Of a stretch of DNA of 64,000 nt, positions 6,975-59,712 are shown piece by piece. The translations under genes were made by a program, and so were the position numbers. Location of the stretch: positions 372,001 to 436,000 of the forward strand of contig NZ_FJUR01000002.1 of assembly GCF_900067135.1 (NCBI RefSeq). Direction: 5' to 3'. How positions within the stretch are numbered: position 1 is the first letter of the stretch; each line of letters begins with the position of its first letter. Origin of the DNA: Rhizobium sp. 9140 (lineage in GTDB: Bacteria > Pseudomonadota > Alphaproteobacteria > Rhizobiales > Rhizobiaceae). The notes beneath the pieces were generated by a model. It was not told where the DNA came from. It was given only the letters and a program-made list of their open reading frames with translations, and searched no databases.

Positions 6975-7721
6975 ATGATCGACCTTCCCACCGGCAACAT
7001 GATCGCCCAGGCGGCCTATCTCATGGGCGACCCCGCTCGCGCCAACATGCTTGCGGCCCTGATCGGCGGCGAAGCGCTGACGGCAGGCGAACTGGCATCT
7101 CATGCAGGCATCACACCGCAGACGGCGAGCGGGCACCTCGCAAAGCTTCTCGACGGACGGCTCGTTACGGCCGAGCGGCAGGGACGCCATCGCTATTTCC
7201 GGCTCGCCTCCCCCTCCGTCGCGCAAGCGCTGGAGGGCCTGATGGCGCTCTCGCAGATGCCGCTGGCTCTACCGGCAAAGCGCCATGGTCCCCGCGGCGA
7301 AGCGATGCGATGGGCAAGGACATGCTATGACCACATGGCAGGTCGCCTTGCCGTGGAGATTGCCGCGAATTTCGAGCAGCGAGGGCTTCTGCAAGGCTCG
7401 GAGGGCGTGGGTGTTCTCTCTGACAAGGGACGTCGCTTCTTCTGCGATTTCGGAATCGACCTGGCGACGACCCGCCGTCCGACGCGGCCGATCTGCCGCA
7501 TGTGCCTCGACTGGAGCGAGCGCCGGCCGCATATGGCGGGACGGCTCGGCACAGCGCTGCTGGCGCGAACGATCGAGCTCGGCTGGGTGATGCGGACGCC
7601 GAACAGCCGGACGCTGAAGATCACCCCGACCGGCGATCGCGGCTTTGCAGCCATGCTCGGTCGGGCGCTCACACCGTCGCAGAGCCTGAAAAACCTTCAA
7701 AACGCCGATTGGGGAAGGTGA
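6975..7721 (+). CDS. ArsR-family winged-helix regulator with C-terminal extension
   Basis: A 248-residue protein. Residues 8-95 are an ArsR-type winged helix: GDPARANMLAALIGGEALTA, then the recognition helix region ASHAGITPQTASGHLAKLLD and wing RQGRHRYFRL. The last 150 residues are an extra region found in longer ArsR-type proteins, with Cys residues in ARTCYDHMAG, RFFCDF and RPICRMCLDW that could bind a metal or sense oxidation (inference). The usual metal-binding ELCVCD box is absent. Its 3' end overlaps the convergent kinase gene by 53 bases. Probably controls the divergent EamA transporter. Confidence 0.83.
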   Translation: MIDLPTGNMIAQAAYLMGDPARANMLAALIGGEALTAGELASHAGITPQTASGHLAKLLDGRLVTAERQGRHRYFRLASPSVAQALEGLMALSQMPLALPAKRHGPRGEAMRWARTCYDHMAGRLAVEIAANFEQRGLLQGSEGVGVLSDKGRRFFCDFGIDLATTRRPTRPICRMCLDWSERRPHMAGRLGTALLARTIELGWVMRTPNSRTLKITPTGDRGFAAMLGRALTPSQSLKNLQNADWGR

Positions 7722-9786
7722 GCGTTACCCGGGTACCCTCGCCCAGTCGCGACTGGATGCTCGCATCTCCGCCGGATTGACGCACGAAGCCATAGACCGT
7801 CGCAAGGCCGAGACCGGCGCTTCCGTCCTTCATACGCGTCGTGAAGTAGGGTTCGAAAGCCTTGTCGATCGCTTCCGGCGCCATTCCGATGCCCTCGTCG
7901 GAAACGGAAACGACAACGGATGTCCCGTCATGCGTCGCCGAGATGGCGATCTCTCCGCCACTCGGCATGGCTGCTGCGGCGTTCAGGCAGAGGTTCAGCA
8001 CGGATTGCTCGAAAAGCGACGGGTCGAGATAAACCATCGGCAAATCCGCATCGGTGGACAGCGTAACCCGGCATGCCTCGCCGACGGCGATTTCGAGCAC
8101 GTCTATCATGCCGGTCAGCACGGATCCGAGATCGATCGAGACGGGAAAGATCTGCTGCTGGCTCGCGACCGACAGCATGCTGGAGGACAGCGCCCGGCCC
8201 CGGTCCGCCGCTTTGCGGATACGGTTGAGATGCCGCCTCTGGCGATCGCTCACGCCGTCCTCACGCTCCAGAAGGCCAAGGCTGCCGGTGACGATGCCAA
8301 TCATATTGCCGACCTCATGGGCGAGCTGATGCGTCATGCGCATGATTCCGTCGAGCCTCAGGGATTTCGCAGCCTCGGCTTCCTGCCGGTCGGCCTCGGT
8401 CACGTCACGCGCCAGCAGGACGAAACCGCCGTCCGGCTGGCGCGAGAGCGACACCTCCACCACTTGCCCCTCCTCCTTGCGCAGCCGGAACACGCATGGC
8501 CTGCCCGGCCGCTCCGCATCTTCGAGCGCATCCTCGACGCCCTTGGCATCGACATCGGGCAGACCTTCCAGAAAGGCCCGCAAGGGCAGCTTTCGGGACG
8601 CACCGCCATGGCCGACGAGCTCGATCACCCGCCGGTTCATCGCCAGCGGCTTGCCCGCGGCATCGAACAGAGCGATGCCCTCGTTCATGCTGCGAAAGAT
8701 CGCGCGGATCGTCTTGGCCGCCGTATCGGCTTTCCGGCGCATCCGGCTGACGCGGTCGACGCTTTCGCGGAAGGCGCTGAAAGCCTGCACCAGCCGGATC
8801 AGTTCCGTCTCGTTGCCGCGATAGCGCGGGACCGCGATGTGCTTCTGCCCGCCGGCTAGCGCATTCATGCCGGCAGAGAGATCGACGATCCCGCGCGAAA
8901 CCCGCATGACGGACCGGATGGCGAGCGCCGCGATGATCAGCATCAGAAGAGCGGTCACGAAAACGATGCTGAGCAGCCGTTGCAGCATCTGCGAAATCGC
9001 CAGCACATCATCGCCGAGCTTTCGCACCACGCTATCGTTCTGCGCCTCGACGGCGAGCGACAGTTCGCGCGAAACCGTGTGGAGGCGCGTGATCGCGGCG
9101 CGGATGGAGAACATTTCCCTGAGATAGCGGGTCTGCGCCGCGAAGATACGGCGGTGGGAATCGAGTGCCGCCTGATCCATGCGGACAGGCGCGGCCTCGG
9201 CAATCGACAGATCCCGGACATAGCGCCTCTGGAGTTCGCCCAGCTGAAACAGGCTGTCGGATGTCGATGCCGATTGCGCGATGGCGTTGAGGCTGGGCGG
9301 CAGGTCGCGAACCGTGGTCATGTCCCGTGTCGCGATCTGGCTCAGCGCCATCGCGGTATCCGACTTGTGCGCCTGCGCCGCCTCGGCATTTTGCAACATG
9401 GTCATCGTCTGCTGCCGGATCGCGCCCAGCAGCGCCAGCACCCGGCCATCGGTGGGCGCCGTGACCCGCTCGTGCCGGGGCTGCATCATGCTCATCAATG
9501 CCTCGACCTGAGCCAGAACGGCGCGGCTCTCGCTGGAAATGCGATAGGGCGACGTCGCGTTCATCAGGAAGGGTGCGCTGGAAACGAGGTCGGAGACCTG
9601 CTTGGAGACGATGGCGGACTTGCCGAGGCTGACGAAGGCCTGCGTGCCATAGGTCGCCATCTCGTTGCGCGCCTTCAGAAGTCCGAAGATGGCGACCGTG
9701 GAAATGCCGAGCACCAGCGCGCCGATGAGCAGGATGGCCGCGGGAAGACGAAAGGCGATGGAAGAGAAGAAGGCGCGACGGGTCAT
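7669..9786 (-). CDS. Membrane sensor histidine kinase, TorS/PgtB-like layout
   Basis: A 705-residue kinase. Helix 1 is at about 13-37 and helix 2 at 271-293; between them lies a roughly 230-residue periplasmic part that looks all-helical. A HAMP region (293-345), a PAS-type domain (about 355-465), then a phosphoacceptor domain with His490 in LAHEVGNMIG follow. The ATPase part has the N box NLCLNAAAAMP, G1 DEGIGM and G2 GSAGLGLATV, so it should be active. No receiver domain is fused. Start and the regulator's stop overlap by four bases (ATGA), giving a regulator-kinase operon. The facing gene is a binding protein; kinases with such helical sensors (TorS with TorT, PgtB with PgtC) read a periplasmic binding protein, which I infer here too. 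Confidence 0.9.
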   Translation of the reverse strand: MTRRAFFSSIAFRLPAAILLIGALVLGISTVAIFGLLKARNEMATYGTQAFVSLGKSAIVSKQVSDLVSSAPFLMNATSPYRISSESRAVLAQVEALMSMMQPRHERVTAPTDGRVLALLGAIRQQTMTMLQNAEAAQAHKSDTAMALSQIATRDMTTVRDLPPSLNAIAQSASTSDSLFQLGELQRRYVRDLSIAEAAPVRMDQAALDSHRRIFAAQTRYLREMFSIRAAITRLHTVSRELSLAVEAQNDSVVRKLGDDVLAISQMLQRLLSIVFVTALLMLIIAALAIRSVMRVSRGIVDLSAGMNALAGGQKHIAVPRYRGNETELIRLVQAFSAFRESVDRVSRMRRKADTAAKTIRAIFRSMNEGIALFDAAGKPLAMNRRVIELVGHGGASRKLPLRAFLEGLPDVDAKGVEDALEDAERPGRPCVFRLRKEEGQVVEVSLSRQPDGGFVLLARDVTEADRQEAEAAKSLRLDGIMRMTHQLAHEVGNMIGIVTGSLGLLEREDGVSDRQRRHLNRIRKAADRGRALSSSMLSVASQQQIFPVSIDLGSVLTGMIDVLEIAVGEACRVTLSTDADLPMVYLDPSLFEQSVLNLCLNAAAAMPSGGEIAISATHDGTSVVVSVSDEGIGMAPEAIDKAFEPYFTTRMKDGSAGLGLATVYGFVRQSGGDASIQSRLGEGTRVTLTFPNRRFEGFSGSATV

Positions 9787-10526
9787 CGCTCCGTCTCGTG
9801 GCGGGGGACCTCCAGCACGTAGCCGCGACCCCGGCGGGTCTTGATATAGCGCGGCAGTTCCGGGTTCTGCTCGATCTTGCGGCGCAGCCGGAGGACGAGC
9901 ACATCGACATTGCGATCCACGTAGCGCTCCGTGCCGCTGCCCAGCCGCTCAAGAATCTGGGAGCGGGTGACGGGGAAGTTCGGCGTTTCGGCCAGCAGTT
10001 CCAAAAGCGCGAACTCCGCGCCGGTCAGCGTTTTGCCGGGCAGTCCCTCGCATGCGGCGAGCCTGCGTTTCAGATCGATGGTCCAGTCTCCGAGCCGCAA
10101 CGCGGACGTTGCGGGTGCGAGATCTGGTGCCATCTCCGGTGCGCGCTCGGGCTTCGGCATCAGGATCGAACGGCGCAACACCGCCTTCATGCGGGCGGCA
10201 AGCTCGATCGGCTCGAACGGTTTGACGATATAGTCGTCGGCGGCCGTCTCCAGGCCCAGCACGCGCTCGGCCGAGCTGCCGGCCGCCGTCACCATGATGA
10301 TGCCCACATCCATGCTGCCGCGAATGCGCTGCGCAAATGTGCGCCCGGACGCACCGGGTAGGTTATGGTCCAGCAGGATGAGATGCACGATCTCGCACAA
10401 CAGGAAGGCCGTCGCCTCCTCGGCCGAACCCGCCACGAACGGCGTCCAGCCCTCCGCCTCGACGAGATCGAACAACAACTCTGCCATATCCGGATCGTCC
10501 TCCACGATCAGAACCTTCACCTGCAT
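9783..10526 (-). CDS. OmpR-family response regulator
   Basis: A 247-residue two-domain regulator. The receiver has the acidic pair at 10-11 (VEDDPD), the phosphorylation site Asp53 in LLDHNLPG, Thr80 and Lys102 in VKPFEP. The C-terminal winged helix (about 145-240) includes LTGAEFALLELLAE, VDVLVLRLRRKIE and a wing ending RGRGYVLEV, as in OmpR/PhoB. It is the first gene of the leftward operon and is co-translated with the kinase. Its target is most likely the 189-base divergent gap leading to the binding-protein genes, where tandem hexamers are found. Confidence 0.93.
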   Translation of the reverse strand: MQVKVLIVEDDPDMAELLFDLVEAEGWTPFVAGSAEEATAFLLCEIVHLILLDHNLPGASGRTFAQRIRGSMDVGIIMVTAAGSSAERVLGLETAADDYIVKPFEPIELAARMKAVLRRSILMPKPERAPEMAPDLAPATSALRLGDWTIDLKRRLAACEGLPGKTLTGAEFALLELLAETPNFPVTRSQILERLGSGTERYVDRNVDVLVLRLRRKIEQNPELPRYIKTRRGRGYVLEVPRHETER

Positions 10527-10595
10527 ATCGAAATTCCTCCTGCCGCATCATAGGCTTCAAGGCGGAATGTTCAAATCCTCGCAGGTGACCGAAAC

Positions 10596-10659
10596 TGTCA
10601 CAAATGTAATATTTGAAAGTTTCGCAACCGTCGGAAACATCGGCTGTAACAACGGTAAC
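10596..10659. promoter_or_regulatory. Two tandem hexamer pairs, candidate response-regulator sites
   Basis: TGTCAC-AAA-TGTAAT at 10596-10610 and TGTAAC-AAC-GGTAAC at 10645-10659: each pair is two similar hexamers with nine-base spacing, and the pairs are 49 bases apart. OmpR-type proteins usually bind direct hexamer repeats, though ten- to eleven-base spacing is more usual. They lie between the response-regulator gene and the first binding-protein gene. No copy was seen before the second binding protein. Confidence 0.4.
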
Positions 10660-10715
10660 CAATCCGTCCTTGAAGCGTTCGCCGTATCTGCCATTCTGAC
10701 TGCGGAGGTCGGGAC

Positions 10716-11765
10716 ATGATTGTTCCCGAGTGGAGGCTTTTGGTGAGGACGTTCATCTGTCTGGCAGCGGCGGCATGTCTGTCGCCTGGCGCGATCGCAC
10801 GTGCAGAGCCCATGGCGCGGCTGAACGTACTGTGCGGCGTAGACGAAGCTTGGTGCGCCGCAATGAAAGAGGCCGTGCGGACCCGGCTGCAGATCGACGC
10901 CACCGTGACGCGCAAGAGCACCGGCGACATCCTCGATCAGGTGCGCCGCGAACAGGCCGATCCGCAGACGGATGTCTGGTGGGGCGGCACGGGCGATGCG
11001 CAGTTGCAGGCGGCGAATGAAGGCCTGCTGCAATCCTACCAGCCGCAAACGGCCACTGCGGTGTTGCCTTGGGCTGACAATTTCTTCGATCTCTCGGGCG
11101 GGCATTCCGCGGGTATCTATGCCGGGGCGCTCGGCTTTGCCTACAATACCGACCTTCTCAAGCAGAAAGGTCTTAAAGCCCCGGCCTGCTGGAAGGACCT
11201 ACTTGACGGGACCTATGCCGGCGCTATCGAGCTTGCTGATCCAAATTCGTCGGGAACGGCCTATACCGCGCTGGCGACGCTGGTTCAGCTCTTTGGGGAA
11301 GACGAAGCGTTCAAATACCTCGGTCGGCTCGGCACCAATATCAGCGCCTATCCGCCGTCGGGCTCGGCCCCGGTGAAAGATGCCGCCCATGGCGAGACGC
11401 TGATCGGCATTTCCTTCATCCACGACGCTGTGACGCTGCGGCAGGCGGGCTATCCGCTTGAGATCGTCGCGCCCTGCGAAGGCACCGGCTACGAGATCGG
11501 CGCCGTCAGCATCGTCAAAGGTGCGAAAAACCTGGAGGCAGCCCGTGCCTTCGTCGATTTTGCGTTGAGTGCCGAGGGACAGGCGACAGGGGCTGGTGCC
11601 GGGCAGAACCAGATGCCGTCCAATGCCGGCGCGTCCCTGCCGCCCGGTGCGCCTGACATTTCGATGATCCGGATGGTCGATTACGACTTCGCGACCTTCG
11701 GCTCGGCGGACGAGCGCCGCCGGCTTCTCAAACGCTTCGACAGCGAGATCCGCGGGATCCCCTGA
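10716..11765 (+). CDS. Periplasmic binding protein (Afu/FbpA fold family), candidate co-sensor
   Basis: A 349-residue exported protein of the solute-binding family 1 type. The signal peptide is FICLAAAACLSPGAIARA. Two starts are possible: ATG 10716 with GGAGG seven bases upstream, or GTG 10743 with GGAGG six bases upstream, which trims the signal peptide to a more usual length. It is clearly paralogous to the next gene (shared DPQTDVWWGGTGD-like, IYAGALGFAYNTD and DPNSSGTAYTALATL blocks). No adjacent Tyr-Tyr ferric-binding pair is seen. It stands divergent to the two-component genes, the layout of PgtC and HptA, binding proteins that present sugar phosphates to sensor kinases; this role is inferred. 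Confidence 0.85.
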   Translation: MIVPEWRLLVRTFICLAAAACLSPGAIARAEPMARLNVLCGVDEAWCAAMKEAVRTRLQIDATVTRKSTGDILDQVRREQADPQTDVWWGGTGDAQLQAANEGLLQSYQPQTATAVLPWADNFFDLSGGHSAGIYAGALGFAYNTDLLKQKGLKAPACWKDLLDGTYAGAIELADPNSSGTAYTALATLVQLFGEDEAFKYLGRLGTNISAYPPSGSAPVKDAAHGETLIGISFIHDAVTLRQAGYPLEIVAPCEGTGYEIGAVSIVKGAKNLEAARAFVDFALSAEGQATGAGAGQNQMPSNAGASLPPGAPDISMIRMVDYDFATFGSADERRRLLKRFDSEIRGIP

Positions 11766-11777
11766 CAAAGCACGAGG

Positions 11778-11796
11778 GAGAGGAAGCCGTCCTCTC
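11778..11796 (+). other. Small hairpin between the two binding-protein genes
   Basis: Arms GAGAGGA/TCCTCTC with a five-base loop, 13 bases after the first binding-protein stop and without a following T-run. It may be an mRNA-processing or weak attenuation point that lets the two paralogues be made in different amounts. The rest of the 171-base gap holds no gene. Confidence 0.3.
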
Positions 11797-11936
11797 TGGC
11801 AAGACCGTCGCCTGCCCGTTTCCGCCGGCGCCGAGGCATCACACACAGGACGGAACACGTGATCCCGCTTGCAGAGACAGGTGGGCAAGGCATCCCCGTG
11901 TCGTCCGAAAACACGTTCAACCAAGGAGGAAAGACC

Positions 11937-12962
11937 ATGAAAACCACGACAGCAGCCATTCTGTTAATGGCCGGGACAGCTCTGACGACCACGACTGCGC
12001 AGGCGGCCGGCACGCTCAACCTGATCTGCTCGGCCGACGTCGTCATCTGCGAGCAGATGAAGGGCGACTTCGAGAAGGACCACGATATCAAGGTCAACAT
12101 GGTGCGTCTGTCATCCGGCGAAACCTATGCGAAGATCCGCGCCGAAGCCCGCAACCCGAAGACGGATATCTGGTGGGCCGGGACCGGCGATCCCCATATG
12201 CAGGCGGCCTCCGACGGGCTGACGCAGGAATACAAGTCGCCGCTTCTCGACCAGTTGCAGGATTGGGCACAGAAGCAGGCCGAAGGCTCCGGCTTCAAGA
12301 CGGTCGGTGTGTATGCGGGCGCGCTCGGCTGGGGCTACAACACCGAGATCTTCAAGACGAAGGGCTTCACCGAGCCGAAGTGCTGGGCCGACCTTCTCAA
12401 TCCCGCCTTCAAGGGCGAGATCCAGATCGCCAATCCGAACTCTTCCGGCACGGCCTATACGGCGCTCGCCTCGCTGGTCCAGATCATGGGCGAGGATCAG
12501 GCCTACGACTACCTGAAGAAGCTTAACGCCAACATCTCGCAGTATACGAAATCCGGCTCCGCTCCGGTGAAGGCGGCGGCCCGCGGCGAGACGGCCATCG
12601 GCATCGTCTTCATGCATGATGCGGTGGCGCAGACGGCGGAAGGCTTCCCGGTCAAGTCGGTCGCGCCTTGCGAAGGCACCGGCTACGAGATCGGCTCCAT
12701 GTCGATCGTCAAGGGCGCCAAGAACCTCGACAATGCGAAGATCTGGTACGACTGGGCGCTGACCCCCGCCGTCCAGTCGCGCATGAAGGACGCCAAGTCG
12801 TTCCAGTTGCCGTCCAACAAGTCGGCCGAGATCCCCAAAGAGGCGCCGCGCTTCGAGGACATCAAGCTGATCGACTACGACTTCAAGACCTATGGCGATC
12901 CGGCCAAGCGCAAGCAGCTGCTGGAGCGCTGGGACCGCGAGATCAGCGCCAACGCGAACTGA
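11937..12962 (+). CDS. ABC transporter substrate-binding protein, AfuA-like
   Basis: A 341-residue periplasmic protein with signal peptide MKTTTAAILLMAGTALTTTT ending AQA. The start at 11937 is set by AAGGAGGA upstream; a longer frame from 11859 has no such site. It belongs to the family named for ferric-binding FbpA, but no Tyr-Tyr iron pair is visible, while SGSAPVKAAARGET and NPNSSGTAYT loops resemble those of members that bind phosphorylated sugars (AfuA). Ligand by sequence alone is not certain: sugar phosphate is favoured because a phosphatase gene ends the same operon. It leads the transporter genes, with 81 bases to the permease start. Confidence 0.88.
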   Translation: MKTTTAAILLMAGTALTTTTAQAAGTLNLICSADVVICEQMKGDFEKDHDIKVNMVRLSSGETYAKIRAEARNPKTDIWWAGTGDPHMQAASDGLTQEYKSPLLDQLQDWAQKQAEGSGFKTVGVYAGALGWGYNTEIFKTKGFTEPKCWADLLNPAFKGEIQIANPNSSGTAYTALASLVQIMGEDQAYDYLKKLNANISQYTKSGSAPVKAAARGETAIGIVFMHDAVAQTAEGFPVKSVAPCEGTGYEIGSMSIVKGAKNLDNAKIWYDWALTPAVQSRMKDAKSFQLPSNKSAEIPKEAPRFEDIKLIDYDFKTYGDPAKRKQLLERWDREISANAN

Positions 12963-13043
12963 TACGCGCCTCGTGCCGGCTGGCGGAGGTGTTGGCCGGC
13001 GCGAGACTTTTGAAACATGGCATGGCTTGAAGAGGGGATCGGG

Positions 13044-15287
13044 ATGGATACCGGCAAAGACAATCGTAACCGCAGACTGGATATCACGCTCGGTCTCGGC
13101 ATTCTCGCCCTCCTGCTCGTCCCCTGGTACAGAATCGAGGGTGGGTTTCTGGCGTTCGGCTGGCTGTCGGGCTTTCCCGGCGAAGCCTCCGGGTCGCCCG
13201 GCCTGCTCCAGATCCTTCTGCACGGGCGCTGGTGGCTTTCCATCGCCGCGCTGATGCTGGCCGTCGCCGGCGTCGCCCGCTTCACGCGCGATCCGAAACG
13301 ACGCGGCGCGCTCCTTGTCCTATCCGGCGCCGTCGGTGTCCTGTTCCTGACGTTGCAGGGCCTTGCCGTCGGCTATTCCGGCTGGTCGTGGACGATCAGC
13401 GAGACGCTGTTCGGGGCGTTGTCCGACGGGCAACCGTCGATGGGCGCGGGCGCCATGCTCTCGGCGCTGGTCTTCGTGCTCCTCTTCTCCTTCGGCCTCG
13501 CCGAGCGTGGCGCCATGAAGGGCGATGCCTTCGTGGTCGCCTCCATCGCGCTTCTGGTCTTTCTCGTCGCCATCTTCGTGTTCTACCCGGTCGGCAGCAT
13601 GCTGGTCGGCGCGTTTCAGGATTTCGACGGCTCGCTCAATCCGGATGGCTTTACCCGCAACATTCAGGACCCCGCCATCTGGAGCCTCGGCTGCGTCATC
13701 GGCGGCGAGCGATGCGGTGTCGCGTGGCGCACGCTGTGGCTCGCGATCATGACGGCCGGCGGCTCCACCGTCATGGGGCTCGCCTTCGCGCTCGTCGCCA
13801 CCCGCACGCGCTTTCCCTTCAAGAAGGGCCTGCGTCTCCTCACCGTCCTACCCATCATCACGCCGCCTTTCGTCATCGGCCTCGCGCTGACGCTGCTGTT
13901 CGGCCGCGCCGGCGTTGTCACCGAGGCGCTGTCCAGCCTGTTCGGCGTCGAGCCGGGCCGCTGGCTCTACGGCATGACGGGCATCTGGATCGCACAGGTG
14001 CTCTCGTTCACGCCCATCTCCTTCCTCGTGCTCATCGGCGTCGTCGAAGGCGTCAGCCCGTCCATGGAAGAGGCGTCGCAGACACTGCGGGCCGACCGCT
14101 GGCGCACCTTCTGGCGGGTCTCGCTGCCTTTGATGAAGCCGGGCATCGCCAATGCGTTCCTGATCGGCTTTATCGAAAGCATGGCGGATTTCGGCAATCC
14201 GCTGGTGCTCGGCGGCAGCCATGGGGTACTCTCAACGGAGATCTTCTTCGCCGTCGTCGGCTCGCAGAACGACCCGTCGCGCGCCGCCGTGCTCGCCATC
14301 ATCCTGCTCTGCTTCACGCTCACCGCGTTCCTCGCGCAGCGCTATTGGCTGGCCGGCAAGAACTTCGCGACCGTTACCGGCAAGGGCGACAGCGGATCGC
14401 ACATTGCTCTGCCGCGCCCACTCTCCATCGGCGTGCATGCCCTGGTCGTTCCCTGGATGCTCTTCACCATCGTCATCTACGGCATGATCCTCTTCGGCGG
14501 CTTCGTCAAAACCTGGGGGCTCGACAACTCCCTGACGCTCGATCACTACATCAGAGCCTTTTCGGTCGAGATCCGCGACGGGGCTCTGGCATGGACGGGT
14601 GTCGCCTGGAACTCCTTCTGGACGACCATGGAGATCGCGCTGATCTCGGCACCCCTGACAGCGGCGGTCGGCTTGCTCACCGCCTACATCATCGTCCGCC
14701 AGACGTTCGTCGGCCGCAACGTGTTCGAATTCGCGCTGATGATGAGCTTTGCCATTCCCGGCACCGTCATCGGCATCAGCTACATCATGGCATTCAACCT
14801 GCCGCCGCTCGAAATGACCGGCACGGCGCTGATCCTCATCGCCTGCTTCGTCTTCCGCAATATGCCTGTCGGCGTGCGCGGCGGGGTGGCGGCCATGAGC
14901 CAGCTCGACAAGAGCCTCGATGAGGCGTCCCTGACACTGCGCGCCACGAGCTTCCGCACGGTCCGCAAGGTCATCCTGCCGCTTCTGCGCCCGGCGATTA
15001 CCGCAGCGCTGGTCTACTCCTTCGTGCGGGCCATCACCTCCATCAGCGCGGTCATCTTCCTCGTCAGCGCCGAGTACAACATGGCGACCTCCTACATCGT
15101 CGGCCTTGTCGAAAACGGCGAGTATGGCGTGGCCATCGCCTATTCCTCCATGCTGATCGTCGTGATGATCGTCATCATCGCCGGCTTCCAGCTTCTCGTC
15201 GGCGAACGCCGGCTCCGCCGCGAAAACCGGGTTGCCGGCCTTCGCTCCGCGCCTTCACCCCTTCTCGGTCAGGAGAAAACAGCATGA
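13044..15287 (+). CDS. ABC transporter permease, two fused permease domains (AfuB/FbpB type)
   Basis: A 747-residue inner-membrane protein. The ATG at 13044 is preferred because GAGGGG stands just upstream; an ATG at 13017 lacks one. After three or four N-terminal helices come two binding-protein-dependent permease domains, each with its EAA loop: EEASQTLRADRWRTF in the first half and DEASLTLRATSFRTV in the second. These loops dock the ATPase. The double-domain form is the one seen in AfuB, FbpB and ThiP, where a single chain fills both permease places. The end overlaps the ATPase start by four bases, so the two are translationally coupled. Confidence 0.9.
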   Translation: MDTGKDNRNRRLDITLGLGILALLLVPWYRIEGGFLAFGWLSGFPGEASGSPGLLQILLHGRWWLSIAALMLAVAGVARFTRDPKRRGALLVLSGAVGVLFLTLQGLAVGYSGWSWTISETLFGALSDGQPSMGAGAMLSALVFVLLFSFGLAERGAMKGDAFVVASIALLVFLVAIFVFYPVGSMLVGAFQDFDGSLNPDGFTRNIQDPAIWSLGCVIGGERCGVAWRTLWLAIMTAGGSTVMGLAFALVATRTRFPFKKGLRLLTVLPIITPPFVIGLALTLLFGRAGVVTEALSSLFGVEPGRWLYGMTGIWIAQVLSFTPISFLVLIGVVEGVSPSMEEASQTLRADRWRTFWRVSLPLMKPGIANAFLIGFIESMADFGNPLVLGGSHGVLSTEIFFAVVGSQNDPSRAAVLAIILLCFTLTAFLAQRYWLAGKNFATVTGKGDSGSHIALPRPLSIGVHALVVPWMLFTIVIYGMILFGGFVKTWGLDNSLTLDHYIRAFSVEIRDGALAWTGVAWNSFWTTMEIALISAPLTAAVGLLTAYIIVRQTFVGRNVFEFALMMSFAIPGTVIGISYIMAFNLPPLEMTGTALILIACFVFRNMPVGVRGGVAAMSQLDKSLDEASLTLRATSFRTVRKVILPLLRPAITAALVYSFVRAITSISAVIFLVSAEYNMATSYIVGLVENGEYGVAIAYSSMLIVVMIVIIAGFQLLVGERRLRRENRVAGLRSAPSPLLGQEKTA

Positions 15288-16345
15288 TCCATCCCCGCGC
15301 CGGTTCCGTCGTCTTCCAGCACGTCAAGAAGCAGTTCGGTGCCTTCACCGCCATTCACGACCTGTCCATCACCATCGAGCCCGGCCAGCTCGTGACCCTG
15401 CTCGGCCCCTCGGGCTGCGGCAAGACCACGACGCTGCGCATGTTGGCGGGGCTCGAACATCCCACCTCCGGCCAAATCCTCATCGGCGGCAAGGACGTGA
15501 CGATGCTGCCGGCCAACGAGCGGGACGTATCGATGGTGTTCCAGTCCTACGCGCTGTTTCCGCATATGAGTTCGCTCGACAACGTCGCCTACGGGCTGGA
15601 ATCTTCCGGCATGAAGCGCAGGGACGCGCGGGAGCGGGCGGAAGAAGGCCTGAAGCTCGTCGGCCTCGCCGGCATGGGCGCGCGGCTTCCCGCCGAACTC
15701 TCGGGCGGCCAGCAGCAGCGTGTGGCCGTCGCCCGGGCGCTGGTGCTGGAGCCGCAGGTCTTGCTGCTCGACGAGCCGCTCTCGAACCTCGATGCGCGCC
15801 TGCGCCGACAGGTGCGCACCGAAATCCGCGAGCTCCAGCAGCGCCTCGGCTTCACCGCCGTCTACGTCACGCATGATCAGGACGAGGCGCTGGCCGTCTC
15901 CGACCGCATCATCATCATGAAGGATGGCGTGATCGCGCAGGAGGGCTCGCCGCGCGATCTCTACGAGGCCCCCGCTTCGGCCTTCATCGCCGATTTCATG
16001 GGCGAGGCCAACGTCGTCGCCTGCGACGTCATCCGCGTCGAAGGGGCGGACGCGACCATTCGCATCGGGGCGCTCGAACATCGCGTGCCCAGCCGCAACG
16101 CACGGCCAGGGCCTGCCAAGCTTGCTGTGCGACCGAACTCGATCACGCTGGAGCCGGCGTCAACCGCCGCCTTCCCGGGGCGGATTACCCATGCGGCCTA
16201 CCTCGGCGACCATGTGGAATATGAGGTGGAGACCGGCACCGGGCGGCTGTTCGTGGTCGATCCCGCGGTGGAACGGGCGCTGCCGCCTGCAACAGATGTC
16301 GCTGTCGGCTTCAAAGGACGCGGCATTGCCATTATCAACGACTGA
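15284..16345 (+). CDS. ABC transporter ATP-binding protein, AfuC/FbpC type
   Basis: A 353-residue ATPase that would drive the fused permease. Walker A GPSGCGKTT is at 41-49, the signature LSGGQQQR begins at 139, and Walker B LLLDEP is at 160-165, followed by the D-loop SNLD and switch His in VTHDQDEA. The last 110 residues form a TOBE-type regulatory domain (PNSITLEP, GDHVEYEVETGTG), as in ferric, spermidine and sugar importers. Its ATG lies within the permease stop (ATGA). The phosphatase gene follows after 25 bases. Confidence 0.93.
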   Translation: MIHPRAGSVVFQHVKKQFGAFTAIHDLSITIEPGQLVTLLGPSGCGKTTTLRMLAGLEHPTSGQILIGGKDVTMLPANERDVSMVFQSYALFPHMSSLDNVAYGLESSGMKRRDARERAEEGLKLVGLAGMGARLPAELSGGQQQRVAVARALVLEPQVLLLDEPLSNLDARLRRQVRTEIRELQQRLGFTAVYVTHDQDEALAVSDRIIIMKDGVIAQEGSPRDLYEAPASAFIADFMGEANVVACDVIRVEGADATIRIGALEHRVPSRNARPGPAKLAVRPNSITLEPASTAAFPGRITHAAYLGDHVEYEVETGTGRLFVVDPAVERALPPATDVAVGFKGRGIAIIND

Positions 16346-16370
16346 GCCGCTTCGTATACAAGGACTTCAC

Positions 16371-17159
16371 ATGACGCATGATCTCGACGCCCGCTTTGCT
16401 CTCGCGCAGACGATCGCCCGCAACGCCGGCGCTGTCGCTCTCGACTATTTCAACCGCCGCGAAACGCTGGTCATCGAAACCAAGCGCGACGCGCAGGACG
16501 TCGTCTCGATCGCCGACCGGGAGGTCGAGAACCTGATCCGCGCCGCGGTGGCCGACGCCCATCCGGATGACGGATTTCTCGGCGAGGAATACGGCCTTGC
16601 CACGGGTGCCTCCGGCTATACCTGGGTGGTCGATCCGATCGACGGCACCAGCCCCTTCGTCAACGGCATGCCGAGCTGGTGCGTTTCCATTGCGGTCCTG
16701 CATGACAGCAAGCCGGTGATCGGCGTGATCTATGCGCCCTGCTTCGATGAGCTCTACGCCGCGGCTGAGGCCAAAGGCGCCGTGCTCAACGGCCGGGTGT
16801 TGACCCTCGACCCGTCACGCACCATCCGCAACGCCGTCACCGGCATCGGCGCCAACAATTACGTCACGCCGGCCTTCGTCGGAAAGATGGTGGAGACGCT
16901 GATGGAAGCCGGCGGCAATTTCATCCGCAATGGGTCGGGCGCGCTGATGCTCGCCTACGTCGCGGCGGGCAGGCTGGTCGGCTATTACGAACCGTACATG
17001 CACGCCTGGGATTGCCTTGCCGGCTATTGCCTCGTGACGGAGGCGGGCGGCTGGCACCATCCCTTCCCTGTCGATGGCGAACAGCTGACCCGCGGGGCTC
17101 CCGTAGTGGCAGCAGCTCCGGGCGCCGTGGACGATCTGCGGCGCATTGCCGGGGTCTAG
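16371..17159 (+). CDS. Inositol-monophosphatase-family sugar phosphatase
   Basis: A 262-residue soluble Mg-dependent phosphatase. Motifs seen: GEEYG with Glu72 and Glu73, the metal site DPIDGTSPFVNGMPSW (Asp88, Asp91), and AWDCLAGYCLVTEAGG with Asp214. The family hydrolyses inositol phosphates, histidinol phosphate, fructose bisphosphate or nucleotide phosphates; the substrate here is not readable. The ATG at 16371 follows AAGGA. It is the last gene of the transporter operon, 25 bases after the ATPase, which suggests it works on what the transporter brings in or on its product. This is the main local hint that the cargo is a phosphate ester and not iron. Confidence 0.88.
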   Translation: MTHDLDARFALAQTIARNAGAVALDYFNRRETLVIETKRDAQDVVSIADREVENLIRAAVADAHPDDGFLGEEYGLATGASGYTWVVDPIDGTSPFVNGMPSWCVSIAVLHDSKPVIGVIYAPCFDELYAAAEAKGAVLNGRVLTLDPSRTIRNAVTGIGANNYVTPAFVGKMVETLMEAGGNFIRNGSGALMLAYVAAGRLVGYYEPYMHAWDCLAGYCLVTEAGGWHHPFPVDGEQLTRGAPVVAAAPGAVDDLRRIAGV

Positions 17160-17170
17160 CACCGTCTCAG

Positions 17171-17204
17171 CCGCGGGCAGCATTCGGACTCATGCTGCCT
17201 GCGG
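17171..17204. terminator. Bidirectional hairpin terminator between convergent operons
   Basis: Thirteen-base arms CCGCGGGCAGCAT and ATGCTGCCTGCGG pair fully except for one G-T wobble, with an eight-base loop, in the 61-base gap between the phosphatase and MFS genes. No strong T-run on either side, so termination strength is uncertain, but the position between convergent stops is telling. Confidence 0.6.
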
Positions 17205-17220
17205 ACCATGTCCCTTCCCG

Positions 17221-18492
17221 TCAAGCGTCCCGTGCCGACCGCAGCGTATGCGTCCCCAGCATGGCAAGGGCGCCGACGAAGCCGACGGCGGCGAAAGCGT
17301 AGAAGCCCCACGGGTGGCCCATGCCGAGCGACACGAGCGTTCCACCGACCAACGGACCGGCAATGGCACCAAGGCGGCCGACGCCTGCCGACATGCCGAG
17401 CGCGGTGGCCCGGATGGCAGGCGGGTGGTTTGCGGCGGTGAAGGCATAGACGAGGACCTGGGCCGAAAAGACGAAGCAACCGGTCATGAACACAAGAGGA
17501 TACAGCAACGCGACCGGGGCTTTCACCGAGAGGATGGCCAGCAGGACGCCGCCGCAGACGAACCATAACACCGCGGCCCGCTTCAAGCCGATCGCGTCGC
17601 CGACGCGCCCGGCGACGATCAGACCGACGACGGCACCCGCATTGAGAAGCAGAAGCAGCCAGAGCCCGCGTTCAAGCCCGTAGTCGGCGGCGACCATCAT
17701 GGCCGGAAGCCAGGTGTTCAGCGCGTAGACCAGCAGAAGTCCCATGAAGGACGTCACCCAGATGGCGATGCTGTTGCGCAGGATCGGCGGGCGAAGAAGG
17801 GTGGCGATCGACGGCCGCTCCTCCGGCTGACCGGCCACCGGCGCGCTGATCTTAAGGCCAAAGGCATCGGCAATCTGGCGGGCCTCTTCGGCGCGACCCT
17901 TGGCGAGCAGGAAAGCCGGGGACTCCGGCAGGTAACGGATCATCAGCGGGACGAGCACGAAACCGGGCACGGCGCCTGCAAAGAACATGGCGCGCCAGCC
18001 GAGCGATGGCAGAAGCAATAGACCGAGAAGAGCCGTCGAAACAGCACCGACATGATAGCCGGTCATGACCGTGGTCGAGGCCTTGCCGGCCTTGCCGCGT
18101 GAAAACTCGGTGACCATGGCGATGGCTGTCGGCAAGCAGCCGCCCAGACCGAAGCCGGCGAGAAAACGGAAGAGACCGAGCTGCCACCAGTTCTGCGCCA
18201 GGCCACAGGCGAGCGTCAGCAGCGAGAAGGCGGCAACAGCCCAGATCATTACCTTACGGCGGCCGAGGCTGTCCGTCGCGATGCCGATCGACAGCGCCCC
18301 GAGCGTCATGCCGACAAGGCTGATGGTCGATACGAACGTCGCTTCCGGCGCCGTCATCCACGGCGTTTCACCACCCGTCAACGTCGGAATCAACGCGCCC
18401 AGCACCACGAGATCGAAGCCGTCCAACACCACAGCGGCCCAACAGAGTGTCGCGACCCATCCGACCGCGACGCCGCTCTTTCCGATTGTCAT
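17221..18492 (-). CDS. MFS transporter, aromatic-acid/proton symporter (AAHS) type
   Basis: A 423-residue transporter with twelve predicted helices. The start at 18492 is chosen because GGAAGGAG stands six bases upstream; a longer frame from 18516 would place that site inside the gene. Family marks are DGFDLVVLGALIPTL in helix 1, TDSLGRRKV in the loop 2-3 and RFLAGFGLGGCLPTAIAM in helix 4-5, which match the AAHS group (PcaK, BenK and relatives). Substrate is probably a small aromatic or other organic acid. No catabolic genes for aromatics sit beside it; the aminotransferase upstream on the same strand is 285 bases away. Confidence 0.87.
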   Translation of the reverse strand: MTIGKSGVAVGWVATLCWAAVVLDGFDLVVLGALIPTLTGGETPWMTAPEATFVSTISLVGMTLGALSIGIATDSLGRRKVMIWAVAAFSLLTLACGLAQNWWQLGLFRFLAGFGLGGCLPTAIAMVTEFSRGKAGKASTTVMTGYHVGAVSTALLGLLLLPSLGWRAMFFAGAVPGFVLVPLMIRYLPESPAFLLAKGRAEEARQIADAFGLKISAPVAGQPEERPSIATLLRPPILRNSIAIWVTSFMGLLLVYALNTWLPAMMVAADYGLERGLWLLLLLNAGAVVGLIVAGRVGDAIGLKRAAVLWFVCGGVLLAILSVKAPVALLYPLVFMTGCFVFSAQVLVYAFTAANHPPAIRATALGMSAGVGRLGAIAGPLVGGTLVSLGMGHPWGFYAFAAVGFVGALAMLGTHTLRSARDA

Positions 18493-18777
18493 TTTCTCTC
18501 CTTCCCAAACATACATCGACGGGAGAGAAGCGCACCGCCTCCGCGTTTCCCGCGCGGGCCGAAAGCGCGAACGTCAAGCATTGCGGCGCATTCTCTCGTC
18601 CCGACAACGGATCGTGGGCTTTCCCATTTGCGGAAAATTCACACGCCCGCCCTCCGGCTCCGATACTGCAGGGATCGTTCAGTTCGGTAAAATGAGTTTT
18701 TCTCTCTGATTGATAACCGCGGAGTTATGGTCGCTCCAAAAAGTGCGGCTGGTCCGGCGGAGATATCCCGCTTGAGG

Positions 18778-20160
18778 TTACGCCAGCCCCTCCGCGGCGA
18801 CGGCGCCCGTCAGACGGTCGAGCGTGCGCCCCATGCGGGTCATGATCTCGGTGATATCGTTGGGCGTCACGATCAGGGGCGGGCAAAGGGCCAGCTGATC
18901 GCCAATCGCCCGGAAGATCAATCCCTCTTCATGGCCGATGGTGGAGGCCAGAGCGCCGGCACGGCCGAGCTTGTCGAACGGCTTGCGCGTCTCCTTGTCG
19001 GCGACCAGCTCGACGGCACCGATAAGGCCCGCGCCCCGCGCTTCGCCCACCAGCGGGTGATCTGCAAAGGCCTGGAGCCCCGCCTGGAACTGTGCCTCAA
19101 GACGGGCGGCATTGCCCATCAGGTCGCGCTCCTCGATGATCGCGAGGTTTTCGAGCGCGACGGCGGTGGCCACCGGATGACCGGAGGCGGTGTAGCCATG
19201 GCCGAACATGCCGATCTTCTCCGAGTTGTCGGCGATCGCCTGGTAGATCGGGTCCGAAAACAGCACCGCGGCCAGGGGCATGTAGGACGAGGTGATCTGC
19301 TTCGACAGTGTCATGATGTCGGGCGTAAAACCGTATTTCTGGCAACCGAACGGCATCCCCAGACGCCCGAAGCCGCAGATGACCTCGTCGGAAACGATCA
19401 GGATGTCATGGGCGCGGCAGATCCGCTCCACGCCTTCCCAGTATCCGACCGGCGGTGGCATCACGCCGCCTGCCGCCATCAGCGGCTCACCGATGAAGGC
19501 CGCGATCGTGTCGGCGCCTTCGGTTGCGATGACGGTTTCGAGTTCGGCGAGCAGCCTTGCTGTGAAAGCCGCCTCGTCTTCGCCGGGCACGCCGAAGCGG
19601 TAGAAATGCGGGCACGTCAGATGATGCACGGGGATGGCCGGCAGGTCGAAGTCGCGGTGATTGGTGGGCAGGCCGGTCAGGCTGCCGGACGCGACCGTAA
19701 TGCCGTGATAGCCCTTGATACGCGACAGGAACGTCTTCTTGTTCGGCCGGCCGAGCGCATTGTTCATGTACCACACCATCTTGACGATCGTGTCGTTGGC
19801 TTCCGAGCCCGACGAGGTGAAGAAGGCGCGGGAGATGTTCGGCGGCGTCATCTCGACCAGCTTCTCGGCAAGCCGGATCGAAGGCTCGTGCGATTTCGAA
19901 GAGAACGTATGATAGTAGGGCAGCTTCAGCATCTGCCGGTGGGCGGCCTCGGCGAGCCGGGGCTCGGAAAAGCCGACGGCGACGGACCACAGGCCAGCCA
20001 GCCCCTCGATATATTCTTTGCCTGTGTTGTCGTAGACCCGGATGCCCTCGCCACGATCGATCACCAGCGGCCCGGTGCGTTCATGCTGGCGCATGTTCGT
20101 GTTGGGATGCAGCACATTGGCGATATCGGCGTCGGCAAGAGAATTTGAGAGAGGCGTCAT
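18778..20160 (-). CDS. Class III PLP aminotransferase (omega-transaminase, SpuC-like)
   Basis: A 460-residue PLP enzyme. The start at 20160 begins a normal family N-terminus (MTPLSNSL); the open frame runs further upstream but without family likeness. Cofactor-site residues: SGSEAND near 117-123, the YHG motif at 151-153, Asp258 in SDEVICGFGR, and the Schiff-base Lys287 in LSKQITSSYMPL. The overall pattern (GLWSVAVGF, GHGYTASGHPV, HPLVGEARGAGL) is closest in memory to polyamine- or beta-alanine-pyruvate transaminases. Donor amine is not certain. It may share a transcript with the MFS gene 285 bases downstream, but no clear link is seen. Confidence 0.9.
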   Translation of the reverse strand: MTPLSNSLADADIANVLHPNTNMRQHERTGPLVIDRGEGIRVYDNTGKEYIEGLAGLWSVAVGFSEPRLAEAAHRQMLKLPYYHTFSSKSHEPSIRLAEKLVEMTPPNISRAFFTSSGSEANDTIVKMVWYMNNALGRPNKKTFLSRIKGYHGITVASGSLTGLPTNHRDFDLPAIPVHHLTCPHFYRFGVPGEDEAAFTARLLAELETVIATEGADTIAAFIGEPLMAAGGVMPPPVGYWEGVERICRAHDILIVSDEVICGFGRLGMPFGCQKYGFTPDIMTLSKQITSSYMPLAAVLFSDPIYQAIADNSEKIGMFGHGYTASGHPVATAVALENLAIIEERDLMGNAARLEAQFQAGLQAFADHPLVGEARGAGLIGAVELVADKETRKPFDKLGRAGALASTIGHEEGLIFRAIGDQLALCPPLIVTPNDITEIMTRMGRTLDRLTGAVAAEGLA

Positions 20161-41757: not shown

Positions 41758-42906
41758 CTACCACTCGGCGACGCTTCCGTCAGAATGGCGCCAAAGCGGA
41801 TTGCGCCAGCGATGGCCCTCGGCGGCGCGGGCGATCACGTATTCCTCGTCCACCTCGATGCCGAGGCCCGGACCCTGCGGGATGGAAACGAAGCCGTCCT
41901 CGTAGTGGAAGACCTCCTTGTTGGAGATGTAATCGAGGATATCATTGCCGGTGTTGTAATGGATGCCGAGGCTCTGCTCCTGGATGAAGGCATTGTAGCT
42001 GACGGCGTCTACCTGCAGGCAGGCCGCGAGCGCGATAGGGCCGAGCGGGCAATGCGGTGCCAGCGCCACGTCGTAAGCCTCAGCCATCGCTGCGATCTTG
42101 CGGCACTCGGTAATGCCGCCGGCATGCGAAAGATCCGGCTGGAGGATGTCGACGTAGCCGTCGGTCAGGACCTGCTTGAAGTCCCAACGCGAATATAGCC
42201 GCTCGCCGAGCGCGATGGGCGTCGAGCAATGATTGGCAATTTCCTTCAGCGCCTCGCGATTTTCCGAGAGCACGGGTTCCTCAATGAACATCAGGTTATA
42301 GGGCTGCAACTCCTTGGCCAGCACCTTGGCCATCGGCCGGTGCACGCGACCATGGAAATCGACACCGATGCCGACATGCGGGCCGATCGCCTCGCGGATG
42401 ATGGCGATCGTCTCGACGGCGCGCTCGACCTTGTCCCAGCTATCGACGATCTGCATCTCCTCGCAGCCGTTCAGCTTGATGGCCTTGAAGCCACGGGCGA
42501 CGACCTCGCGCGCATTGTTGGCGACGTCGCTCGGACGATCGCCACCGATCCAGGAATAGACCTTGATCTTGTCGCGAACCTGCCCGCCGAGCAGCGAGTG
42601 GATCGGCTGGCCGAGCGCTTTGCCCTTGATATCCCACAGTGCCTGATCGATGCCGGCAATCGCGCTCATGTGAATGGCACCGCCGCGGTAGAAACCGCCG
42701 CGATACATCACATTCCAATGATCCTCGATCAGGAAAGGGTCCTTGCCGATCAGGTAGTCCTCGAGCTCGTGGACGGCCGCTTGCACGGTCAGCGCCCGGC
42801 CTTCAACCACGGGTTCGCCCCAGCCGGTAATGCCCTCATCGGTCTCGATCTTCAGGAACATCCAGCGCGGAGGCACGATGTAGGTGGTCAGTTTCGTGAT
42901 TTTCAT
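41758..42906 (-). CDS. dgoD: D-galactonate dehydratase
   Basis: A 382-residue enolase-superfamily enzyme, the exact length of E. coli DgoD, converting D-galactonate to 2-keto-3-deoxygalactonate. [20 protein letters not shown] is the family start, followed by [20 protein letters not shown], the metal site [22 protein letters not shown], and the acid/base histidine in [13 protein letters not shown]. The start at 42906 is preferred to a TTG at 42957 that overlaps the regulator gene. Downstream enzymes (2-keto-3-deoxygalactonokinase, aldolase) are not in the window. Confidence 0.92.
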
Positions 42907-58596: not shown

Positions 58597-59712
58597 CTAC
58601 TGCGCCGAGATATCGTGCGTGAACTCCGAAACGCTCTGCGCCTTCACCGCTGCCCAGTCCCAGGCGATGCCGAGGCCCGGTTCGCTGGGCGCCATCGCGC
58701 GCCCATCCCGGATCTCCATGCCCTTGGTCGTCAGGTCTTCGAGCTGCGGGATGTACTCGACATAGCGCCCGTTCGGCACGGCGCAGACGAGGCTGACATG
58801 CAGTTCCATCAGGAAGTGCGGGCAGACGGGGATGTCGAAGGCCTCGGCGGCATGCGCAACCTTCAGCCAGGGCGTGATGCCGCCGATGCGGGCGACATCG
58901 ACCTGCACGATCGAGCAGGCGCCCTTCTGCATGTATTCGCGGAAGTGGCGGATCGAGTAGATGGATTCGCCAACCGCAATCGGCGTCGCCGTCGAGCGCG
59001 TCAGGCGGATATGTCCGTCGAGATCGTCGGCCGACAGCGGCTCCTCAATCCAGGCGAGATCGAGCTCCTTCAACCGCTCGGCCCGCCGGATGGCCTCGTC
59101 CACCGAAAAACCCTGATTGCAGTCCGTCATGATCTCGAAGCCTTCGCCCAGCGCCTTGCGCATGGCAGAAAGTCGGGCGAAATCTTCCGAGCCATGCGGC
59201 TTGCCGATCTTCACCTTCGATCCGGCAAAGCCCTTCTCCTTGGCTTGCAGGGCATCCTCCACCAGAGCGCCGGCTTCGATATGCAGCCAGCCGCCCTCGG
59301 TCGTGTAGAGCGGACAGCTTTCGCGCGCGCCACCGGCAAGTTTCCAGAGGGGCAGGTTCTGCTTGCGCGCGCGCAGATCCCAGAGCGCCGTATCGATCGC
59401 TGCCAGCGCCAGCGCGCTGATCGCGCCGATGGTGGTCGCATGGGTGTGGAACTCGAGCTTGTGCCAGATCGCCTCGATCCGGTCGGCATCTTCCCCCAGA
59501 AGAACCGGGGCGAGGTGGTCCGCAAGGAGCCGCATGACGGAGGAGCCACCGGTGCCGATCGTGTAGGAATAACCCGTTCCCGTTGCGCCATCGCTATCGG
59601 TGATGGTGATGATGGGTGTTTCCTGGCTGACGAAGCTCTGGATCGCATCCGTCCGCTTCACCTTCGGCTTCAGGTCCACCATGCGCAGTTCGATGCGTTC
59701 GATCCGGGCCAT
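58597..59712 (-). CDS. Mandelate racemase/muconate lactonizing-type dehydratase, substrate unknown
   Basis: A 371-residue enolase-superfamily enzyme. Lysine pair in GSKVKIGKP, metal ligands in MTDCNQGFSVD, WIEEPLSADDL and AVGESIYS, and the His of CPHFLMELH place it in the mandelate-racemase subgroup of acid-sugar dehydratases. It is only distantly like the fucD product of this operon, so a second acid sugar (an epimer or an oxidised by-product) is probably handled. Which one cannot be told from sequence. One base separates it from the ATPase gene's stop. Confidence 0.88.
   Translation of the reverse strand: MARIERIELRMVDLKPKVKRTDAIQSFVSQETPIITITDSDGATGTGYSYTIGTGGSSVMRLLADHLAPVLLGEDADRIEAIWHKLEFHTHATTIGAISALALAAIDTALWDLRARKQNLPLWKLAGGARESCPLYTTEGGWLHIEAGALVEDALQAKEKGFAGSKVKIGKPHGSEDFARLSAMRKALGEGFEIMTDCNQGFSVDEAIRRAERLKELDLAWIEEPLSADDLDGHIRLTRSTATPIAVGESIYSIRHFREYMQKGACSIVQVDVARIGGITPWLKVAHAAEAFDIPVCPHFLMELHVSLVCAVPNGRYVEYIPQLEDLTTKGMEIRDGRAMAPSEPGLGIAWDWAAVKAQSVSEFTHDISAQ

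Follow-up and report, generated by a model that had tools for sequence, protein, structure and literature searches.

What does a rhizobial locus take up when it joins a two-component system (TCS), two binding proteins, an ATP-binding cassette (ABC) transporter and a phosphatase, and why are two binding proteins encoded? This question is raised by seven genes of Rhizobium sp. 9140, located in a stretch of 64,000 nucleotides (contig NZ_FJUR01000002.1, positions 372,001 to 436,000) that is referred to as the window. Genes for a kinase and a response regulator run leftwards, and genes for two substrate-binding proteins (SBP1 and SBP2), a permease, an ATPase and an inositol monophosphatase (IMPase)-family phosphatase run rightwards. 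A description made earlier from the sequence alone (the original prediction) had proposed this layout, and every gene was found in its place with the expected domains. The layout is not due to chance because the tandem SBP pair with kinase and regulator was repeated in 32 of the best-scoring 80 loci, kept from at least 589 matches in an SBP1 scan of named genomes, which is no census. By a narrow preference, the locus is taken here to import a phosphorylated cyclitol, myo-inositol monophosphate being the most likely one, and to have a periplasmic sensing branch of its own.

Binding proteins and ligand pocket

SBP1 (10716..11765, (+) strand) and SBP2 (11937..12962, (+)) were 49% identical over 309 residues. 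AfuA of Actinobacillus (PDB 4r72) was the nearest solved structure of both, with E-values of 3e-85 for SBP1 and 1.1e-93 for SBP2 and identities of 139/315 (44%) and 152/316 (48%) aligned positions. Ligand contacts were mapped from the available text of two AfuA studies, according to which mutation of H205, D206 and E229 abolishes binding of glucose-6-phosphate (G6P) (PMC4546632, PMC8427247). These residues and Y103, T150 and Q269 were kept in SBP1 and SBP2 and were invariant in 33/33 SBP1 and 33/33 SBP2 tandem rows, the window included. Judged by these alignments, both proteins are relatives of AfuA with its three essential ligand residues. P5PA, which binds pyridoxal phosphate, carries Ala at AfuA positions 206 and 229, where SBP1 and SBP2 keep Asp and Glu; as aligned, neither protein is of the P5PA type. 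In the ligand shell, both SBPs differed from AfuA at positions 11, 36 and 186, and SBP1 also at 9 and 37. In the related Rhodoferax proteins, the ligand-shell letters agreed with those of SBP2 at all 12 positions compared. The SBPs of loci L060, L068 and L064 differed from SBP2 at position 11, and those of L060 and L068 also at 186.

Transport of ferric iron or 2-aminoethylphosphonate, as suggested by annotation names or PhnS2-type models, is very improbable. The permease was named iron ABC transporter permease in 7/9 records, the other two being without permease annotation, and the PhnS2 model (TIGR03261) matched both SBPs. Its scores of 184.7 and 208.8 bits, however, stayed below the cut-off of 392.75, and ferric-binding HitA matched SBP1 at 1.8e-09 versus 3e-85 for AfuA, so that the closest solved relative is no iron-binding protein. 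The phosphate ester that had been expected instead of iron agrees with AfuA as the nearest solved structure and with the conservation of H205, D206 and E229.

Gene linkage and transported substrate

SBP2 is followed by the genes for a fused permease (13017..15287, (+); 756 residues with two BPD_transp_1 stretches, alternative start possible at 13044), an ABC ATPase (15284..16345, (+); TOBE_2 domain, overlapping the permease by 4 bp) and a predicted cytoplasmic inositol monophosphatase (16371..17159, (+)). The substrate assignment was derived from the neighbours of this gene set in relatives. In L129, the IMPase is followed by the myo-inositol (iol) genes iolB and iolE, both over the NCBI cut-offs, and a cut iolD; in the longer stretch L150, iolD and iolC were over the cut-offs too. 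The same iol neighbours were present in L124, L130 and L131, and the transporters of these three loci and of L129 were orthologs of the window's (SBP2 79-81%). L060 and L068 showed iolG, IMPase, SBP, permease and ATPase in one direction, divergent from iolC-D-E-B, and L159 the same series in one direction. Genes for iol functions were also located at the more distant AfuABC-like loci L151, L152 and Rhodoferax L054 and L075. Over the cut-off were iolG, the iolC domain, iolD and iolE of L060 and iolG of L151 and L159; the other genes were identified by their similarity to these.

A sample of 247 genomes of the family comprised 86 with any AfuA-like match at 1e-70, and iolE was sought in 80 of these. 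It was located within 7 kb of AfuABC-like genes in 6/80 genomes, belonging to three genera. In the class sample, an AfuA-like match was present in 22/289 genomes, and the 21 other than the own genome were tested. iolE was over the cut-off in 15/21 and within 11 kb of AfuABC-like genes in 5/21, from four families, versus an expectation of 0.14 (Poisson P 3e-7, with distance limits set after the distances had been seen). All five class loci showed further iol genes and four of them an IMPase. Altogether, an IMPase-type phosphatase was present at 10/11 iol-linked loci (6 family and 5 class), 4/11 being orthologs of the window transporter. As a control, xylose isomerase was searched in the same 80 family genomes, 73 of which had a match over the cut-off. 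None was within 11 kb over the cut-off, and one truncated sub-cut-off match was about 9.7 kb off in G441.

Several observations weigh against an inositol phosphate. No iolB, iolD or iolE match was present in the window, and the iolE copies over the cut-off of the own genome were located on another contig. The 42 family genomes with an SBP2 at least 70% identical were all taken as close relatives; among them, these three genes were found at 0 of 19 TCS-type and 16 LacI-type loci and only at 4/7 loci with neither regulator type. G479 and G534, of the same genus as one iol-linked genus, had the transporter and lacked the iol linkage. L156, one of the five class loci, had no IMPase match, and the pocket residues do not tell inositol phosphate from hexose phosphate.

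Uptake of hexose or heptose phosphates as by AfuABC, under the same co-sensor logic and with the phosphatase freeing the sugar, would suit the LacI-type regulator that replaces the sensor in relatives; regulators of this type are often sugar-responsive. G6P and fructose-6-phosphate (F6P), on the other hand, enter central metabolism without a phosphatase, and iol linkage recurred in several families. AfuA, for which the available text gives G6P, F6P and sedoheptulose-7-phosphate (S7P) as ligands (PMC4546632), is the nearest solved relative (44% and 48%) with all essential residues kept, but it was placed outside the clade of both SBPs and differs from them at ligand-shell positions 11, 36 and 186. 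Inositol is unmentioned in the main text of that study by Sit et al., and its tested-ligand table holds no inositol phosphate (PMC4546632). Inositol phosphate would fit the gene neighbourhoods better and is more likely than the hexose phosphate of the original prediction, given the iol linkage in relatives. Sugar-phosphate uptake appears rather unlikely.

The phosphatase scored 181.8 bits for the Inositol_P domain (cut-off 27), and no signal peptide was recognised by eye. Its nearest solved chains were SuhB and inositol-1-monophosphatases (122 bits), with HisN at 89 bits. A HisN identity was rejected, since the HisN model (TIGR02067) gave 167.7 bits, below the cut-off of 275.15, and another gene of the genome reached 317 bits. 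The inositol monophosphatase superfamily has other substrates as well. In an IMPase tree of 46 chosen loci, for which the bootstrap had not settled, the linked phosphatases were not one clade. A group of 33/40 linked rows included the window's, L158, L046 and L077 formed another group, and the iol-linked L157, L075, L159 and L060 grouped with two of the host's own IMPases, whose branch is long. The phosphatase may therefore have been recruited more than once.

Kinase, regulator and SBP1 as one module

The sensor histidine kinase (7669..9786, (-); 705 residues, PAS (PAS_7) and HATPase domains) comprises a transmembrane segment, a helical periplasmic domain of about 230 residues, a second transmembrane segment, a HAMP-like linker, PAS_7 and the kinase core. 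Its N-terminal 335 residues were modelled entirely as helix with a mean pLDDT (predicted local distance difference test) of 77, in line with the helical periplasmic part described originally. Pfam gave no credible match for the sensor domain even at E 5. The 3' end of the OmpR/PhoB-type regulator gene (9783..10526, (-); Response_reg and Trans_reg_C) overlaps the kinase start by 4 bp. A convergent ArsR-type regulator gene (6975-7721, (+)) overlaps the kinase end by 53 bp (7669-7721).

In an SBP tree with 117 rows, every one of the 39 SBP1-type rows was in a kinase-regulator setting, and SBP1 was never seen without the pair in the data examined. SBP1 of the window was within a set of 37 rows (support 98) and SBP2 within another group of 75 rows (support 83), 38 of which were without kinase-regulator neighbours. 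AfuA itself was placed outside the clade of the two. A recent tandem duplication was rejected by this tree, which separates SBP1 and SBP2 into different, older clades; the 'duplicated' binding protein of the original prediction does not hold as a local duplication. On the tree, the SBP pair is a meeting of two clades. Among the 80 loci, the tandem counts exclude L038, L046 and L077, where an SBP2-type protein is also close to a kinase and a regulator but the genes are arranged differently. A single SBP1-type protein with kinase and regulator was present in 7 more of the 80 loci, of which L036, L039 and L066 formed a separate branch. In L157 (4799-11078), two AfuA-like proteins flank one permease in the order IMPase, SBP, permease, SBP and ATPase, with iolE and iolG nearby, and AfuA-like matches at most about 3 kb apart were also found in the class genomes G545, G620, G711, G715, G732 and G735. 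Close SBP pairs are thus not confined to the TCS form.

Linkage was counted in 121 evenly sampled genomes of the family. The kinase sensor domain was present in 9/121, and the same nine held SBP1 at 63% identity or more, in each case no farther than about 2 kb away; with these limits, the kinase sensor or SBP1 alone was found in none of the 121. In a sample of the order, the sensor domain was found in 5/297 genomes, with at most seven first-look candidates scored per genome and misses possible.

Stretches of 14.5 kb were read around the transporter in the 42 close relatives, three being cut by contig ends. Kinase, regulator and SBP1 were present in 19, a LacI-type regulator in 16, neither in 7 and both in 0. 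Of the loci with neither, L130 has to be discounted because no more than 320 bases could be read upstream, and the other six had 6.8-7.1 kb. In every relative in which no kinase was found (23/42, one cut just upstream), the orthologous transporter lacked SBP1. An IMPase was located downstream of the transporter in 41/42, the exception being L105. The original prediction had been staked on the kinase remaining linked to the transporter in most relatives. To the letter this failed, with 19/42 linked, but SBP1 was absent from the others too. In plasmid records of S. meliloti, Pantoea dispersa, Aureimonas and a cave Rhizobium, this transporter and phosphatase were accompanied by a divergent gene of the LacI type, and the LacI domain was over the Pfam cut-off in all three regulators scanned. 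L090 (R. leguminosarum WSM1325 plasmid pR132504), outside the 42-genome sample, was alone among the loci seen in having both regulator types.

A core tree was built by a quick method from four transporter-phosphatase proteins in 55 rows, of which 27 were TCS (the window entering twice), 21 LacI and 7 other; its inner support was mixed. By parsimony, the TCS-LacI label changed three times, and two of these changes were forced by well-supported branches. The group of the window comprised 8 rows with support 100, namely 5 TCS (4 distinct) and 3 LacI. Kinase, regulator and SBP1 are an exchangeable unit standing where relatives have a LacI-type regulator.

Co-variation was calculated from pairwise distances over the 32 tandem loci and the window (33 loci, 528 pairs). 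SBP1 distances tracked those of the kinase sensor (r 0.95), the PAS part (0.93) and the regulator (0.93), and SBP2 distances tracked those of the permease (r 0.92) and ATPase (0.89). Correlations between the two blocks were 0.73-0.85, for example 0.78 for SBP1-SBP2 and 0.85 for SBP1-permease. The kinase core was an exception to the two-block pattern, correlating at 0.80-0.89 with everything. With permease, ATPase, regulator and the other SBP held constant, the partial correlation of kinase sensor and SBP1 was 0.51, a value as high being reached in 0/2000 permutations. For the kinase core, the partial correlations were 0.34 with SBP1 and -0.03 with SBP2. SBP1 diverged faster than SBP2 (mean 0.269 vs 0.141).

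A co-sensor role of SBP1 has to be weighed against several points. SBP2 kept a signal, with a partial correlation to the kinase sensor of 0.33 (5/2000 permutations), and the co-variation can also arise if SBP1, kinase and regulator move together as a block. The modest fold match of the kinase sensor to TorS and McpS was within the chance range of helical bundles. In the single-SBP loci L005, L007, L016 and L037, with a permease 53-55% and an SBP1 62-68% identical to the window's and no IMPase match, SBP1 was the sole binding protein found and must serve transport; SBP1 of the window could therefore serve transport too.

The closest described layout is AgtSR-PA0602-AgtABCD of Pseudomonas aeruginosa, where a two-component pair, an extra SBP and a transporter with its own SBP share one locus (PMC11113362). 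It differs in its ligands, γ-aminobutyrate (GABA) and 5-aminovalerate, and the available text mentions no phosphatase. Neither PA0602 nor AgtB bound the AgtS sensor domain by calorimetry according to the same source (PMC11113362), which shows that such a layout can exist without SBP-kinase binding.

These points leave room for SBP1 as a second transport SBP that widens the substrate range, with the kinase sensing its ligand directly through the helical domain in the manner of McpS. McpS, solved with malate and succinate bound, was the best natural fold match of the kinase sensor, modest as it was, and both the single-SBP loci and the failure of AgtS to bind its neighbouring SBPs (PMC11113362) would agree with this. 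Contrary to it, the orthologous transporter did without SBP1 in the 23/42 relatives in which no kinase was found, and SBP1 co-varied more with kinase and regulator than with the permease. A purely transporting SBP1 with a directly sensing kinase is considered rather improbable. SBP1 is predicted to be the sensor partner and SBP2 the transport partner, as the original prediction had it, with strong indirect support from clade, linkage (39/39 rows; 9/121 genomes) and co-variation. Since the AgtSR-type layout failed a direct binding test, the co-sensor role of SBP1 stays a prediction.

Predicted operator upstream of SBP1

Within the locus, genes overlap by 4 bp or are separated by less than 60 bp, except for regulator-SBP1 (189 bp) and SBP1-SBP2 (171 bp). 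The regulator-SBP1 regions of 15 loci, the window's among them, were aligned and showed TGTnACA-type repeats at 9-bp spacing, plus a second box nearer to SBP1. In the window, the predicted operator, conserved in the aligned loci, comprises three repeats at 9-bp spacing (TGTCACAAA TGTAATATT TGAAA; 10596..10618, (+)), and a second, weaker repeat copy (TGTAACAACGGTAA; 10645..10658, (+)) lies upstream of SBP1. The 20-bp pattern had a single copy at one mismatch or less in the own 5.43-Mb genome, at window position 10596. It was present in 34/39 regulator-SBP1 regions at up to two mismatches and in 29/39 at up to one, and it was absent from L016, L036, L039 and L066 even at three. Searched anywhere in the stretch at up to two mismatches, it was found in 26/26 TCS-type, 0/21 LacI-type and 1/7 other loci. 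The 34/39 count is not independent because some of these loci had served to define the pattern; the absence from LacI-type loci and the single genome copy are independent. No operator was found before SBP2 in any of 32 SBP1-SBP2 regions at up to three mismatches. The repeat array may be the operator of the regulator, as we infer from its position and distribution.

Neighbouring genes

A range of other genes surrounded the related loci. In L090 (14650-18948), the ATPase is followed by a HAD phosphatase, a LacI-type regulator, two NUDIX hydrolases and a YvcK-like protein. In L094 of Rhizobium sp. Pop5 (16635-19076), a NUDIX hydrolase, an inorganic phosphate transporter and a DUF47 protein come after the IMPase, which would fit phosphate release. 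L098 of Shinella sp. HZN7 (15592-19023) has a second ABC cassette directly after the IMPase, with a permease annotated as iron transporter. L122 and L125, with neither sensor type, have genes for methionine aminopeptidase and L-arabinonate dehydratase as neighbours upstream of SBP2. In the window, 41845-42906 (-) and 58663-59610 (-) showed 28% and 24% identity to a protein judged by eye to be of the mandelate racemase/enolase type.

Known systems, proposed mechanism and significance

The locus is a variant of known co-sensor and AfuABC-type systems, and the inositol-phosphate assignment is the new element. TorT of the TorT-TorS pair (PDB 3o1h, 3o1i) belongs to another binding-protein family. 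This pair also differs in its ligand, trimethylamine N-oxide (TMAO), and the fold match of the kinase sensor to it was modest. SBP1 and SBP2 had a weak sequence match to PDB 6lkg-6lkl, which we take to be HptA. In the HptA-HptSR system of Staphylococcus aureus, a G6P-binding protein likewise signals to a kinase, but the system controls the antiporter UhpT instead of an ABC importer with a second SBP (PMC8774646). AfuABC of Actinobacillus pleuropneumoniae shares the SBP family, the three essential ligand residues and the set of SBP, permease and ATPase. It differs in having hexose and heptose phosphates as proven ligands and AfuA outside the SBP1/SBP2 clade, and the available text gives no second SBP, kinase or phosphatase as part of it; a fucose-sensing pair is described near AfuABC in enterohaemorrhagic Escherichia coli (EHEC) (PMC4546632).

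An operon on pSymB of S. meliloti comprises orthologous SBP2, permease, ATPase and IMPase (SBP2 85%) and differs in a divergent LacI-type regulator instead of kinase, regulator and SBP1. SMb20362-SMb20365 are presumably this S. meliloti ortholog, which fits the pSymB operon found. A table of a PhaR study lists SMb20362 (inositol-phosphate phosphatase) with -2.57, SMb20363 (FbpC1) with -4.17 and SMb20365 (iron-binding protein) with -3.72 (PMC12542648). In the literature searched, with narrow phrases and most subscription journals outside coverage, neither a bacterial inositol-phosphate importer nor such a locus was found, nor a paper on afuA, Rhizobium and sugar phosphate or from a related Agrobacterium search.

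In the proposed mechanism, a phosphate ester would enter the periplasm, where SBP1 would bind it and, in the way that TorT serves TorS, present it to the kinase's helical sensor domain. The kinase would phosphorylate the OmpR-type regulator, which could then bind the array found before SBP1 and switch on both divergent operons. Based on homology and co-variation, SBP2 would pass the ester to the fused permease and ATPase. In the cytoplasm, the IMPase would strip the phosphate, yielding myo-inositol for the iol pathway and inorganic phosphate, as gene linkage in relatives suggests.

Much of the organic phosphorus in soil and seeds is stored as inositol phosphates, and phytate is a plant source. 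The alpha- and betaproteobacterial clade annotated as iron transporters could be the first bacterial ABC importer family for inositol phosphates, working with an IMPase and the iol pathway, which in rhizobia and Stappiaceae would have acquired a swappable two-component module with a second SBP serving only as sensor; we hold this wider proposal to be evenly balanced. If it is true, a widespread group of transporters that now bears an iron-uptake label would be re-assigned to the supply of phosphorus and carbon from plants, and pSymB of S. meliloti would offer a ready case for testing. The replacement of a LacI-type regulator by a kinase with its own SBP before one operon would then be a natural experiment on SBPs becoming sensors.

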